A DNA stretch of 64,000 nt, taken from NCBI GenBank assembly GCA_017656185.1, contig JACDOK010000006.1, positions 1 through 64,000 of the forward strand. The letters are read 5' to 3'. Source of the DNA: Peptococcaceae bacterium (GTDB taxonomy: Bacteria; Bacillota; Desulfotomaculia; Desulfotomaculales; JACDOK01). The number at the start of each line of letters is the position of its first letter. The stretch's first letter is position 1. The notes beneath the pieces were generated by a model that was not told the origin of the DNA, searched no databases, and was given only the letters and a program-made list of their open reading frames with translations. This document shows positions 6,292 to 43,376 of this stretch, one piece after another. Both the position numbers and the translations under genes were made by a program.

Positions 6292-7398
6292 ATGGGCAAA
6301 AAAGTTACGGTGTCTGTCATTAAGGCCGATGTCGGTGGATTTGTAGGCCATTCCGGCGTGCATCCCGAGTTACTGGAAAAGGCCAAGGGTATTTTGGCGG
6401 GCAGCCCGCTCCTGATAGACTTTCACGTTACCCACGTAGGCGATGATATTAATTTAATCCTTTCTCACGAACTGGGCCGCAACAACGGGGAAATTCACCA
6501 GTTGGCATGGGATACTTTCACCGCGTGTACGGAAGTCGCCAAGAAACTAAAACTATACGGCGCGGGACAGGACCTTTTGGGTGACGCTTTTTCCGGTAAC
6601 ATCAAGGGTTTGGGGCCCGGTGTAGCTGAAATGGAAGTAGAAGAGCGTAAAAGCGAAGCTATCCTGGTCTTCATGGCTGATAAAACCGAACCCGGCGCCT
6701 GGAATTTGCCTCTTTATAAAATGTTTGCCGATCCCTTTAATACCATCGGCCTTGTTATTGATCCCAATATGCACTGTGGTTTTGATTTTGAAGTTCGTGA
6801 TCTTATTGAAAACAAGAAGATTATGTTCTCGGCACCTGAAGATATTTACGATATGCTCGTGTTCATCGGTGCGCCAGGCCGGTATGCCATTAAACGTGTT
6901 TTCCACCGCGGAACGAAACAAATTGCTGCGTCTTCCAGCACGCAGCGCCTGAATCTTATGGCTGGCCGTTACGTAGGTAAAGACGACCCCGTTTGTATCG
7001 TCCGCTGCCAGAGCGGCTATCCCGCCGTTGGCGAAGCACTGGAAGCTTTCGCCCACCCGCACCTGGTTGCCGGTTGGATGCGTGGTTCACATCACGGCCC
7101 CCTGATGCCGGTCGGTGTGGAACAGTCCACCCCGACCCGCTTCGACGGCCCGCCGCGGGTAATCTGTCTCGGATTCCAGTTGGCTGAGGGCAGGCTGGTC
7201 GGGCCCCAGGATATGTTCGCCGATCCGGCCTTCGACAATGCCCGGCAGAAGGCCCTGGACATCGCCGACTATATGCGGTCCCTCGGTCCCTTCGAGCCGC
7301 ACCGGCTGCCCTTGGACGAAATGGAATATACCACCATGCCCCAGGTAATGAAGAAATTAAAGGACCGGTTTATTGATCTGAGGGGAAAGAAGAAATAA
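6292..7398 (+). CDS. fbp: Bifunctional fructose-1,6-bisphosphate aldolase/phosphatase (type V FBPase)
   Basis: VTVSVIKADVGGFVGHSGVHPEL...FHVTHVGDDINLIL...DPNMHCGFDFEV characteristic of the archaeal-type FBPA/P family. Confidence 0.93.
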   Translation: MGKKVTVSVIKADVGGFVGHSGVHPELLEKAKGILAGSPLLIDFHVTHVGDDINLILSHELGRNNGEIHQLAWDTFTACTEVAKKLKLYGAGQDLLGDAFSGNIKGLGPGVAEMEVEERKSEAILVFMADKTEPGAWNLPLYKMFADPFNTIGLVIDPNMHCGFDFEVRDLIENKKIMFSAPEDIYDMLVFIGAPGRYAIKRVFHRGTKQIAASSSTQRLNLMAGRYVGKDDPVCIVRCQSGYPAVGEALEAFAHPHLVAGWMRGSHHGPLMPVGVEQSTPTRFDGPPRVICLGFQLAEGRLVGPQDMFADPAFDNARQKALDIADYMRSLGPFEPHRLPLDEMEYTTMPQVMKKLKDRFIDLRGKKK

Positions 7399-7399
7399 A

Positions 7400-7542
7400 G
7401 CGGCAAAGCCGCTGTAATACGCTCGCACCGGAGTGCTCGCTGAGATACGGCCAGCGGAGCTGGCCTGAGATACGGCGCTGGCGCGCCTGCGATACACTCG
7501 TATTAAACACTCGCTGTGATAGCCCGGCATTTAAGCCGGGCT
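7400..7542 (+). repeat. Tandem array of variable small palindromes separated by constant 8-nt linker TGNRATAC
   Basis: GCGGCAAAGCCGC-TGTAATAC-GCTCGCACCGGAGTGCTCGC-TGAGATAC-GGCCAGCGGAGCTGGCC-TGAGATAC-GGCGCTGGCGCGCC-TGCGATAC-...-TGTGATAG-palindrome. Confidence 0.85.
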
Positions 7543-7656
7543 TAACTATTACATATGGTGTTGTATCCATAGAAGCTAACAGACCACTAAGGTGTATCAT
7601 AGGCTCAGCACCTAGGAAAGCCTTTAAAAGGTTAGCCTTATACTGAGTATGGAGCC

Positions 7657-7733
7657 GTATCACAGTAGAGCCCATAGGCGAAACGTATCACAGCGCTGTA
7701 AAGCGCGTATTACAGTCCAGCTTTGCTGGACGT
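7657..7733 (-). repeat. Inverted-orientation array of the same palindrome/linker family
   Basis: GTATCACA ... GTATCACA-GCGCTGTAAAGCGC-GTATTACA-GTCCAGCTTTGCTGGAC (reverse complement of TGTGATAC/TGTAATAC linkers). Confidence 0.8.
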
Positions 7734-7734
7734 C

Positions 7735-8160
7735 TTACTGCTTACTGTATTTGTCTAATACCCGATTTACCAACGCATCTGCCTCTTTGTTGTATTCACG
7801 TTTAACATGGTGCAGTCTAAGGGTAATTTCGGGGTGGGCCTGCAGCTTTTTTCGTATCTTAAGTGCGATACGGCGCAGGGTTGGTTCTTTAATGCGGTAA
7901 ACGCCATTCCACTGCCGTACCACTAACTGGCTGTCGGCCTGCACGTCGGCTTCAACCGGGCCGTGCTCTCTCGCCAACTCGATCAATATATCCACCGCGT
8001 GGTCCAGGGACGACCACTCGGCAAAGTTATTGGTGGCCGTTCCCAGGTAATGGCTGTCCTTCCGTACCACCTTTCCGGTTTCGTCCCTTATCACTACTCC
8101 CAGGGCGGCCGGGCCGGGGTTACCCCGGCTGCCCCCATCTATGCCTACAAAAAACTTCAT
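7735..8160 (-). CDS. rnhA: Ribonuclease HI family protein
   Basis: MKFFVGIDGGSRGNPGPAALGVVI...NFAEWSSLDHAVDI...ADSQLVVRQWNG...NKEADALVN. Confidence 0.93.
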   Translation of the reverse strand: MKFFVGIDGGSRGNPGPAALGVVIRDETGKVVRKDSHYLGTATNNFAEWSSLDHAVDILIELAREHGPVEADVQADSQLVVRQWNGVYRIKEPTLRRIALKIRKKLQAHPEITLRLHHVKREYNKEADALVNRVLDKYSKQ

Positions 8161-8451
8161 TTACTGCTCCTCGCCTTCTTTCTTTCGAATTGCCTCGTTT
8201 TCCAACCGGTACACCCAGGCAATAACCTGTGCCACGGCTTCATACAATACCGGGGGTATTTCCTGCCGTACTCCCAGAGCCGTCAAGGTACAGGCAAGTT
8301 CCGGATCTTCGTACACCGGTACCCCGGCCTTTCTGGCCTCCTCTTCGATCAATGCGGCCAACCTGCCGTGCCCCGCCGCCACCACCCGGGGAGCATTATC
8401 CTTTACCGCATCGTATTTCAGGGCTGCCGCTACTTTCTTTTTAAAAGCCAT
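8161..8451 (-). CDS. FlhB-like cytosolic (C-terminal domain) protein, YlqH type
   Basis: AAALKYDAVKDNAPRVVAAGHGRLAALIEEEARKAGVPVYEDPELACTL resembles FlhB_C without the NPTH cleavage motif or TM region. Confidence 0.75.
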   Translation of the reverse strand: MAFKKKVAAALKYDAVKDNAPRVVAAGHGRLAALIEEEARKAGVPVYEDPELACTLTALGVRQEIPPVLYEAVAQVIAWVYRLENEAIRKKEGEEQ

Positions 8452-18359: not shown

Positions 18360-19622
18360 TTATTCCCTTATCTGCCCGTCGCCATAAATAATGAACTTCT
18401 TTGTGGTCAGTTCTTTTAAACCCATCGGCCCCCGCGCGTGGAGTTTCTGCGTGGAAATACCGATCTCGGCCCCAAAACCGTATTGGAAACCGTCGGTAAA
18501 ACGGGTGGAAGCATTGACGTATACCGCCGCCGCGTCCACCTCTTTCAGGAACCGCCGGGCACGTGTGTAATTTTCCGTGATAATGGCTTCGGAATGCTTG
18601 GTACCGTAACGGTAAATGTGATCAATGGCCTCGTCAATGCCATCGACAACCTTTACGGACATCACCAGGTCCAGAAACTCGGCGGCATAATCCTCTTCGG
18701 TGGCTTCCTTGACCCAGGGCACGATCTCCTTCGTCCGGGAGCAACCCCGTATTTCCACCCCGCGTTCACGAAGCGCGCCCAGCAGCCGCGGAAGTGCCGC
18801 AGCCGCTACAGGCTCGTCCACCAGCAAAGACTCCATAGCGTTGCAGACCCCGGGACGCTGGCATTTAGCGTTAATGACCACGGCTTCCGCCATGGACAGG
18901 TCGGCATCCCGATCGATGAACACGTGACAGTTACCTACTCCCGTTTCAATAACCGGCACGGTGGCATTCTGCACGACTGCCTGGATTAAGCCGGCGCCGC
19001 CGCGCGGGATCAGAACGTCGAGATACTCGTTCAGCTTCAGCATTACATTTACGGCGGCACGGTCGGTATTTTCGACAAGTTCGATGGCTCCTTCGGGAAC
19101 TCCCGCCCTGGCAGCCGCTTCACTGATAACTTTAGTAATAGCCCGGTTGGAATTAATCGCCTCCGAACCGCCGCGCAGCAAAATGGCGTTCCCCGCCTTC
19201 AAGCACAACCCGGCGGCATCCACCGTAACGTTGGGACGGGCTTCATAAATGATGCCGATAACCCCCAGCGGCACCCGCACCTGCCCTACCTGCAGCCCGT
19301 TGGGAAGTGTCCACATTGAGGTTACTTCGCCAACCGGATCAGGCAGCTTCACCAATACGTCCAGCCCTTCAGCCATGTCTTTAATGCGATTTTCGGTTAA
19401 AAGCAGCCGGTCGATAAGAGCCTTGGACAGTCCTTTGGCTTTACCGGCCTCGACATCTTTGGCGTTTGCTTCCAAAATTTCCGGCGCACGCGCTACCAGC
19501 TCTTCCGCCATAGACTTTAAGGCGTCGTTCTTGACGTTGGTTGAAAGATAAGCCAGCCGGCGCGCGGCTTCTTTGCACCGTGCCGCTTTTTCAACCACGG
19601 CTTGTCTGATCTCGTCCGTCAT
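18360..19622 (-). CDS. proA: Gamma-glutamyl phosphate reductase
   Basis: VPLGVIGIIYEARPNVTVDAAGLCLKAGNAILLRGGSEA...FGFGAEIGISTQKLHARGPMGL-type C-term. Confidence 0.96.
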   Translation of the reverse strand: MTDEIRQAVVEKAARCKEAARRLAYLSTNVKNDALKSMAEELVARAPEILEANAKDVEAGKAKGLSKALIDRLLLTENRIKDMAEGLDVLVKLPDPVGEVTSMWTLPNGLQVGQVRVPLGVIGIIYEARPNVTVDAAGLCLKAGNAILLRGGSEAINSNRAITKVISEAAARAGVPEGAIELVENTDRAAVNVMLKLNEYLDVLIPRGGAGLIQAVVQNATVPVIETGVGNCHVFIDRDADLSMAEAVVINAKCQRPGVCNAMESLLVDEPVAAAALPRLLGALRERGVEIRGCSRTKEIVPWVKEATEEDYAAEFLDLVMSVKVVDGIDEAIDHIYRYGTKHSEAIITENYTRARRFLKEVDAAAVYVNASTRFTDGFQYGFGAEIGISTQKLHARGPMGLKELTTKKFIIYGDGQIRE

Positions 19623-19645: not shown

Positions 19646-19790
19646 TGTAATACGGCCCTCCGGGCCTGTGATACGCGGCAAAGCCGCTGTGATGCACTCG
19701 TGCGACGCCCTCGTTGTGATACGTTCGCGCTATGCGCTCACTGTGATACGCTTATTTCGTTCGCTGCCATTCGCCCGCTCCGCTCGCTGG
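19646..19790 (+). repeat. Second tandem palindrome / TGTGATAC-linker array
   Basis: TGTAATAC-GGCCCTCCGGGCC-TGTGATAC-GCGGCAAAGCCGC-TGTGATGC-...-TGTGATAC-GTTCGCGCTATGCGCTCAC-TGTGATAC-GCTTATTTCGTTCGC. Confidence 0.85.
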
Positions 19791-40160: not shown

Positions 40161-40217
40161 AGGCACCCGGCACTCAGGTAAGCCGGAAATGCAAGCAAAC
40201 CTGAGTGCTGGGTGCCT
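40161..40217 (+). terminator. Long-stem hairpin/terminator
   Basis: GGCACCCGGCACTCAGG ... CCTGAGTGCTGGGTGCCTTTCTTT. Confidence 0.75.
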
Positions 40218-43132: not shown

Positions 43133-43376
43133 TACGTCCGCTTCGCTCACTTTCATTCGCCCAGCACTCAGGGCTGAACAAGTTGCTTTGGAGCACTGTA
43201 GTAATCGCTGGTAACAGGCCGGGTATTTGAACCTTATATTGTTGACTGAGTGCTGGGCTGATCTTCGCCCTTCGTCGTTCTTTTGAATAGGCTCCAAGTT
43301 CGCGCTCCGGGAATCCCCCGTGGACATCTACATTCATTTTCATTCTTCGTGGTACTGATATACTCAGTATGGGAAA

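Follow-up and report, generated by a model that had tools for sequence, protein, structure and literature searches.

Strand-polar intergenic arrays of variable hairpins on a constant 8-nt linker in a Peptococcaceae genome

Introduction

REPs are short intergenic hairpins that carry an unpaired tag at one foot, fold in a strand-specific manner as single strands and vary in their stems by compensatory change; one E. coli REP case with conserved mismatches has been described (PMC3733652, PMC8266576). IS608 and ISDra2, which are related to RAYT/TnpA-REP, target the lagging-strand template (PMC6006769). Here we describe arrays in which an 8-nt linker, read as GTATCACA or GAATGACA on what we call the GTAT strand, alternates with short and mostly different hairpins. 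In common with GTAG REPs, their hairpins are intergenic, bear an unpaired tag on the 5' foot, fold strand-specifically and show compensatory changes in the stem. They differ from GTAG REPs in the tag, which is GTATCACA or GAATGACA and not GTAG (GTRG/GYAG), and in that each unit has its own stem without a family consensus hairpin (52 distinct among 54). The units form uniform head-to-tail strings, whereas GTAG REPs are mostly inverted dimers. Moreover, GTAG REPs are accompanied by an IS200/IS605-related RAYT, whereas the source genome has no PF01797 protein.

CGTC/TGTC REPs likewise lack a known dedicated transposase, and their tag TGTC can be compared with the second linker form found here, TGTCATTC. 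Their stems are 8-9 bp long, start with AT pairs and close with loops of 4-5 nt, whereas the stems here measure 5-7 bp. The unpaired linker here contains ATTC, with TGTC occurring only within the TGTCATTC linker, and G/A richness falls on the opposite strand. CGTC REPs also occur mostly as inverted (head-head) dimers and rarely in clusters, in contrast to the head-to-tail arrays of this genome. CRISPR arrays share the alternation of a constant short repeat with different units in polar order, but their repeats are at least 20 nt long and their spacers unique and non-repetitive, whereas here the repeat has 8 nt, the "spacers" are palindromic and the arrays lie at about 20 dispersed loci. The double-hairpin elements of Allomyces mitochondria and similar organellar palindromes, mentioned in PMC7218506, are also mobile-looking intergenic hairpins, but they are organellar. 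By eye, the unit ends of the arrays that we read show no integron attC R boxes (RYYYAAC/GTTRRRY), and a literature search for the linker and for arrays of variable palindromes found no description.

Results

Opposed arrays between fbp and rnhA

The window is a stretch of 64,000 nucleotides (positions 1 to 64,000 of contig JACDOK010000006.1) from a Peptococcaceae bacterium. Within it, TGNRATAC occurs 27 times against 13.1±3.4 expected, a count reached in 0 of 100 shuffles, and most of the excess lies in two arrays. One of them occupies positions 7400-7733 between fbp and rnhA. The fbp product is a type-V fructose-bisphosphatase as evidenced by its match to the FBPase_3 profile, and the rnhA product is RNase H-like, scoring above the cut-off for RVT_3 and just below it for the RNase_H model. 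Re-reading the sequence upheld the initial annotation of this gap as differing mini-palindromes on TGNRATAC-type linkers in two opposed blocks. Perfect palindromes are indeed present; some of those annotated as palindromes are instead hairpins with an internal tandem mismatch and form a second class. We call plain stems of 5-7 bp class A, and hairpins built of two outer pairs, two mismatched positions per arm and an inner stem class B.

Block 1 begins one base past the fbp stop codon (TAA, 7396-7398) and contains six hairpins and five TGNRATAC-type linkers; the palindromes between its linkers are 14-20 nt long and all different. Its hairpins are given here on the minus strand and its linkers on the plus strand. 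The last, gene-side hairpin, GCGGC-TTT-GCCGC on the GTAT strand (7400-7412), abuts the fbp stop codon and is joined by linker TGTAATAC (7413-7420; GTATTACA on the minus strand) to a class B hairpin with tandem GA mismatches, GC-GA-GCAC-TCCG-GTGC-GA-GC (7421-7440). Two copies of linker TGAGATAC (7441-7448 and 7466-7473) enclose the class A hairpin GGCCAGC-TCC-GCTGGCC (7449-7465), and the second copy leads to another class A hairpin with a GNNA loop, GGCGC-GCCA-GCGCC (7474-7487). Linker TGCGATAC (7488-7495), the class B hairpin GCGAGTGTTTAATACGAGT (7496-7514) and the degenerate linker TGTGATAG (7515-7522) follow. At the far end stands a larger perfect hairpin, AGCCCGGC-TTAAAT-GCCGGGCT (7521-7542), which overlaps the last linker by 2 nt. 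Linkers were identified from the sequence and, except for the degenerate one, the motif count; the gene-side hairpin was identified from the sequence as a palindrome. The hairpins at 7421, 7449 and 7474 come from the linker-pair scan and the unit list, the first of them also from the mismatch analysis, and the hairpin at 7496 comes from the unit list.

Block 2 is read on the other strand, with three hairpins and three linkers, and ends 3 nt before the rnhA stop codon (7735-7737, minus strand). All its features are given on the plus strand. Linker GTATCACA occurs twice (7657-7664 and 7685-7692), preceding the class B-like hairpin GTAGAGCCCATAGGCGAAAC (7665-7684) and the class A hairpin GCGCT-GTAA-AGCGC with its GNNA loop (7693-7706), respectively. 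Linker GTATTACA (7707-7714) then precedes the hairpin GTCCAGC-TTT-GCTGGAC (7715-7731), 3 nt from the rnhA stop codon. These linkers were found both in the sequence and by the linker-pair scan, the hairpin at 7665 through the unit list, that at 7693 through scan and list, and that at 7715 in the sequence. A degenerate linker, GTATCATA (7594-7601), was also read from the sequence; between it and the first GTATCACA lies a degenerate copy of the S element described below (GGCTCAGCACC...ACTGAGTATGGAGCC, 7602-7656, no strand assigned), recognized by eye in comparison with the S family and flanked by the two linkers. The gap between the opposed blocks is 135 bp. This opposed arrangement was seen only at fbp-rnhA; elsewhere the blocks run head-to-tail.

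On the minus strand at 7399-7413, the fbp-stop hairpin followed by TTATTTCTTC is the only terminator-like site of the region and could halt read-through from rnhA. Beside rnhA, a 96-aa protein (8161-8451, minus strand) aligns solely with the final 75 positions of the FlhB model (Bac_export_2) and is predicted to be a free-standing FlhB C-terminal domain.

A second array and the gene-side ends

The second array (19646-19788, minus strand) contains six different hairpins on linkers of the TGCCATTC form at 19646, 19667, 19688, 19715, 19742 and 19765. It is situated between an Aldedh-family and a HIT-family gene and begins immediately 5' of the ribosome-binding site of the former, a 420-aa gene (18360-19622, minus strand) that is probably proA. 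With gene boundaries taken from a simple ORF and codon-usage caller, the first, gene-side hairpin of many arrays abuts a stop codon or a ribosome-binding site on either transcription strand. In both situations the string turns its hairpin end, rather than its linker end, towards the gene.

Dispersal through the genome

A genome-wide scan, as proposed in the initial annotation, revealed that the arrays are not local. The source genome (2.31 Mb, 82 contigs, 99.9% complete) contains at least 54 linker-hairpin-linker units in 22 blocks, a list that depends on the linker patterns and on reading the stretches around pattern matches. The linkers are TGTGATAC, TGAGATAC and TGTAATAC, plus the second form TGTCATTC (GAATGACA on the other strand), and with few exceptions they fit G[TA]AT[CGT][AT]CA across the 54 units, 52 of whose hairpins are distinct. 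The paired pattern GTATYNCA-N9-25-GTATYNCA yielded 35 matches genome-wide and 3 with the reversed control. For paired GAATGACA there were 16 matches against 1 in the control, and all 16 enclose hairpin-like sequence. The constant linker with variable palindromes thus extends genome-wide, and the view that this is not a standard REP/BIME layout holds. A scan of genome contigs for three consecutive TGTGATAC returned 105 stretches, none with palindromes between the linkers; this pattern is too strict, being absent from every array read from the source genome.

Fold and strand asymmetry of the hairpins

What is conserved in the hairpins is the fold, not the letters. Over the 54 units we counted 255 Watson-Crick pairs, compared with 154±5.6 in shuffled units (shuffled maximum 173). 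In the 13-nt ungapped class, 98.7% of cells at the five pair positions are paired, and four of the five pairs vary on both sides, giving a covariation score of 0.632 against 0.170±0.049, with slid controls at or below 0.10.

The structure belongs to one strand, the GTAT strand, an observation that is new here. Loops of the form G..A close 23 distinct hairpins on the GTATCACA strand and 1 on the complement (p = 3e-6); they are mainly C-GAA-G, C-GGA-G, C-GTA-G, C-GCA-G and C-GCCA-G, and most tetraloops are GCCA or another GNNA form instead of GNRA. The class B mismatches on the same strand are purine/purine in 17 of 18 cases, with GA/GA in 11. The tag sits 5' of every hairpin on the GTAT strand. 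Exceptional stability is known for C-GNA-G and C-GNNA-G mini-hairpin loops in DNA and, in DNA as well as RNA, for tandem GA mismatches in a CGAG context. The preferred strand is the same under RNA and under DNA energy parameters, and loop structure by itself is therefore also compatible with RNA.

Array polarity and linker order

GC skew, taken over ±15 kb around each array with the array itself excluded, served as a proxy for the replication strand, albeit a weak one on some contigs, and by this measure the G-rich strand coincides with the GTAT strand for 20 of 23 multi-unit arrays (p = 0.0005). The bias persists without the six sites whose skew is below |0.03| (14 vs 3 of the remaining 17) and by contig majority, where 12 of 13 agree; it is less clear for single-linker sites (8 vs 4). 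By the usual meaning of GC skew, the GTAT strand would be the lagging-strand template. Polarity does not track transcription. Where an array follows a stop codon, as at fbp, rnhA and several other genes, the RNA would contain the less structured TGTGATAC strand with TC/TC mismatches; where it immediately precedes a ribosome-binding site, as at 19646 and elsewhere, the RNA would contain the GTAT strand.

The linker types are also ordered. In all four mixed arrays, GAATGACA linkers stand 5' of GTATCACA linkers on the GTAT strand, and three further GAATGACA blocks end on the same side in an intermediate form, GAATCACA or GAATAACA. The order GTATCACA to GAATGACA was not seen in any stretch read from the source genome.

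Recurrence and intergenic surroundings

Adjacent hairpins resemble each other no more than randomly drawn ones do (normalised edit distance 0.488 vs 0.461), which argues against array growth by simple tandem duplication. A few hairpins recur at distant loci, and GGCACTTCGTGCC and GCCCAGCATAAGCTGGGC are adjacent in two arrays in reversed order. Some recurrence is expected by chance with short GC-rich stems. An 18-nt hairpin would not easily recur in this way, although the recurring one could derive from the S/M elements by deletion.

S and M are two MITE-like families with ends GCCCAGCACTCAG and CTGAGTGCTGGGC and variable inner sequence, S being about 49 bp and M about 101 bp long; the window holds an S at 40165-40213 and an M at 43159-43258. 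Their ends match 75+81 times genome-wide. Among the copies examined in the source genome there was neither a target-site duplication nor an autonomous copy. Often an S/M element is placed precisely between two linkers of an array. Many arrays (L023, L155, L168, L169, L157 and others) are followed at their far side by modules in a fixed order: 11-mer tandem repeats of the GTGATACGGTA type, with the linker core GTGATAC inside them, then GGGTATTCCTTTGGGGTC with a GGGCGGGTC/GACCCGCCC hairpin, then TTACTGCTCACTCCTCACT repeats. The intergenic DNA thus looks like an ordered mosaic.

Searches in other genomes

A covariance model of the 13-nt class recovered 21 units from the source genome at E values of up to 0.05 and had no match in 112 further genomes from the order, all of which belong to other families. 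G004, from another family of the order, contains strings of like build on a TRATTAC/TAATTTC linker (L195, L204, L209, L246). These are few, since a blind hairpin-cluster count over 381 kb of G004 gave 27 against 24 in shuffles, not above chance. Searching the order with GCGAGCGNAGCGAGC returned mostly unrelated cassette-like repeats and coding sequence, with the string layout only in G004, and GTAATYA pairs across the order gave noise without clear excess over controls. Cassette-like repeats that start with TAACGGGGCGCGGGGTTTGCGAAG and contain GCGAGCGAAGCGAGC (L196, L205, L210 and L212-L215 in G085; L201 in G021) look like attC-type sites.

In other genomes of the phylum, inverted dimers of the form TGTCATTC...GAATGACA lead into GAATGACA-N13 strings (L271/L276 in G391, L277 in G309, L266 in G184, L269/L275 in G314), whose 13-mers are near-identical in G309 and different in G391. 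Inverted dimers are a point in common with CGTC/TGTC REPs, and the second linker may be related to that group; in the dimers, the TC-rich arm lies on the strand that reads GAATGACA, contrary to what the arrays here show. Plasmid and phage BLAST searches gave no match, and no Rfam family scored above its cut-off (best 14.9-16.6 bits vs gathering thresholds of 35-40).

Discussion

The explanation we favour, with moderate confidence, is that these are REP-like non-coding palindromic repeat arrays whose hairpins function as folded DNA single strands on the lagging-strand template, their units having been added singly by an enzyme that has since been lost or lies outside the Y1 family. It builds on the observed dispersal, covariation, strand-specific loops and mismatches, polarity, linker order and dissimilar neighbours, and on the failure to detect a Y1 transposase. 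The initial annotation had proposed looking for a RAYT/TnpA-REP transposase. None was found, as Y1_Tnp (PF01797) has 0 matches in the source assembly while the same profile search was positive in five control genomes; a palindromic repeat of REP type is nevertheless still favoured. On the GTAT strand, a unit consists of the 8-nt tag (GTATCACA or GAATGACA) and then a short hairpin, with a 5-7 bp stem and a C-GNA-G or C-GNNA-G loop in class A and, in class B, an additional tandem GA/GA two pairs from the foot. Once the GTAT strand is exposed at the fork, the hairpins would act as folded single-stranded DNA, and an enzyme reading hairpin shape and tag would add units one by one. We infer that the units are mobile. 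Because only shape would be read, we propose that the hairpins drift by compensatory change. Most likely, the arrays themselves are intergenic DNA of a selfish or neutral kind, ending where gene signals start.

A purely mutational origin, in which template switching and slippage make and keep hairpins on the lagging-strand template without a dedicated enzyme or selection, would account for the replication-strand bias and for near-perfect stems that vary freely, and template switching between imperfect inverted repeats is a known cause of arm homogenisation (PMC7202029). Such homogenisation, however, should erase the tandem GA/GA mismatches, yet purine/purine mismatches are kept in almost every class B hairpin. 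Neighbouring hairpins bear no sign of slippage duplication either, and the constancy of the 8-nt linker at unlinked loci is left unexplained, so we regard this origin as doubtful. An RNA role was among the initial suggestions, as an RNA-processing or termination array: transcribed hairpin strings would protect mRNA 3' ends, terminate transcription or be cut at the linkers. The intergenic siting, with several arrays directly past stop codons, and a strong sense-strand RNA fold (z -3.2) are consistent with this, as is the position of known REPs, often downstream of genes and thought to act as RNA (PMC3733652). Nevertheless, the sense transcript carries the strand with the poorer loops, TGTGATAC, after stop codons and the other strand before start codons, the tetraloops are not of the GNRA type, and the region contains 1 terminator-like site against 0.5 expected. 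As array polarity follows GC skew, and with it the replication strand rather than transcription, we consider an RNA element unlikely.

The linker could also be a target-site duplication, left by tiny palindromic elements that repeatedly enter an 8-bp site. That M or S sometimes lies exactly between identical linkers (GTATCACA...GTATCACA; GAATGACA...GAATGACA) and that linker types come in blocks would fit. M/S copies outside arrays, however, have no 8-bp duplication, and linkers differ within a single array (TGTAATAC, TGAGATAC and TGCGATAC in the window). To our knowledge, a 13-bp palindrome is also too short for known terminal-repeat transposases, and this reading appears quite improbable. Least probable of all, the units could serve a nucleoid or topology protein, such as gyrase or an IHF-like one, as binding sites and be retained for their usefulness. 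Some E. coli REPs do bind such proteins, but free hairpin letters with only the shape conserved are ill-suited to a reader of duplex DNA.

Beyond the REP-like reading, we raise more tentatively, and as rather unlikely, that some unknown single-stranded DNA process works on the lagging-strand template, adding shape-recognised hairpins singly beside the 8-nt tag in a polar order of which the switch in linker type is the record. This would amount to CRISPR-like growth by a non-Y1 enzyme, in which the acquired unit would be a DNA hairpin.

REPs are among the oldest bacterial repeats known, and their origin, like the existence of entire families without a transposase, still awaits explanation. In this genome the conserved features can be read directly, namely G..A loop closure, tandem purine mismatches and a single replication strand, against a background of drifting letters. 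The arrays therefore separate structure from sequence, and the single-strand replication-fork model of REP-like repeats becomes testable by strain comparison.
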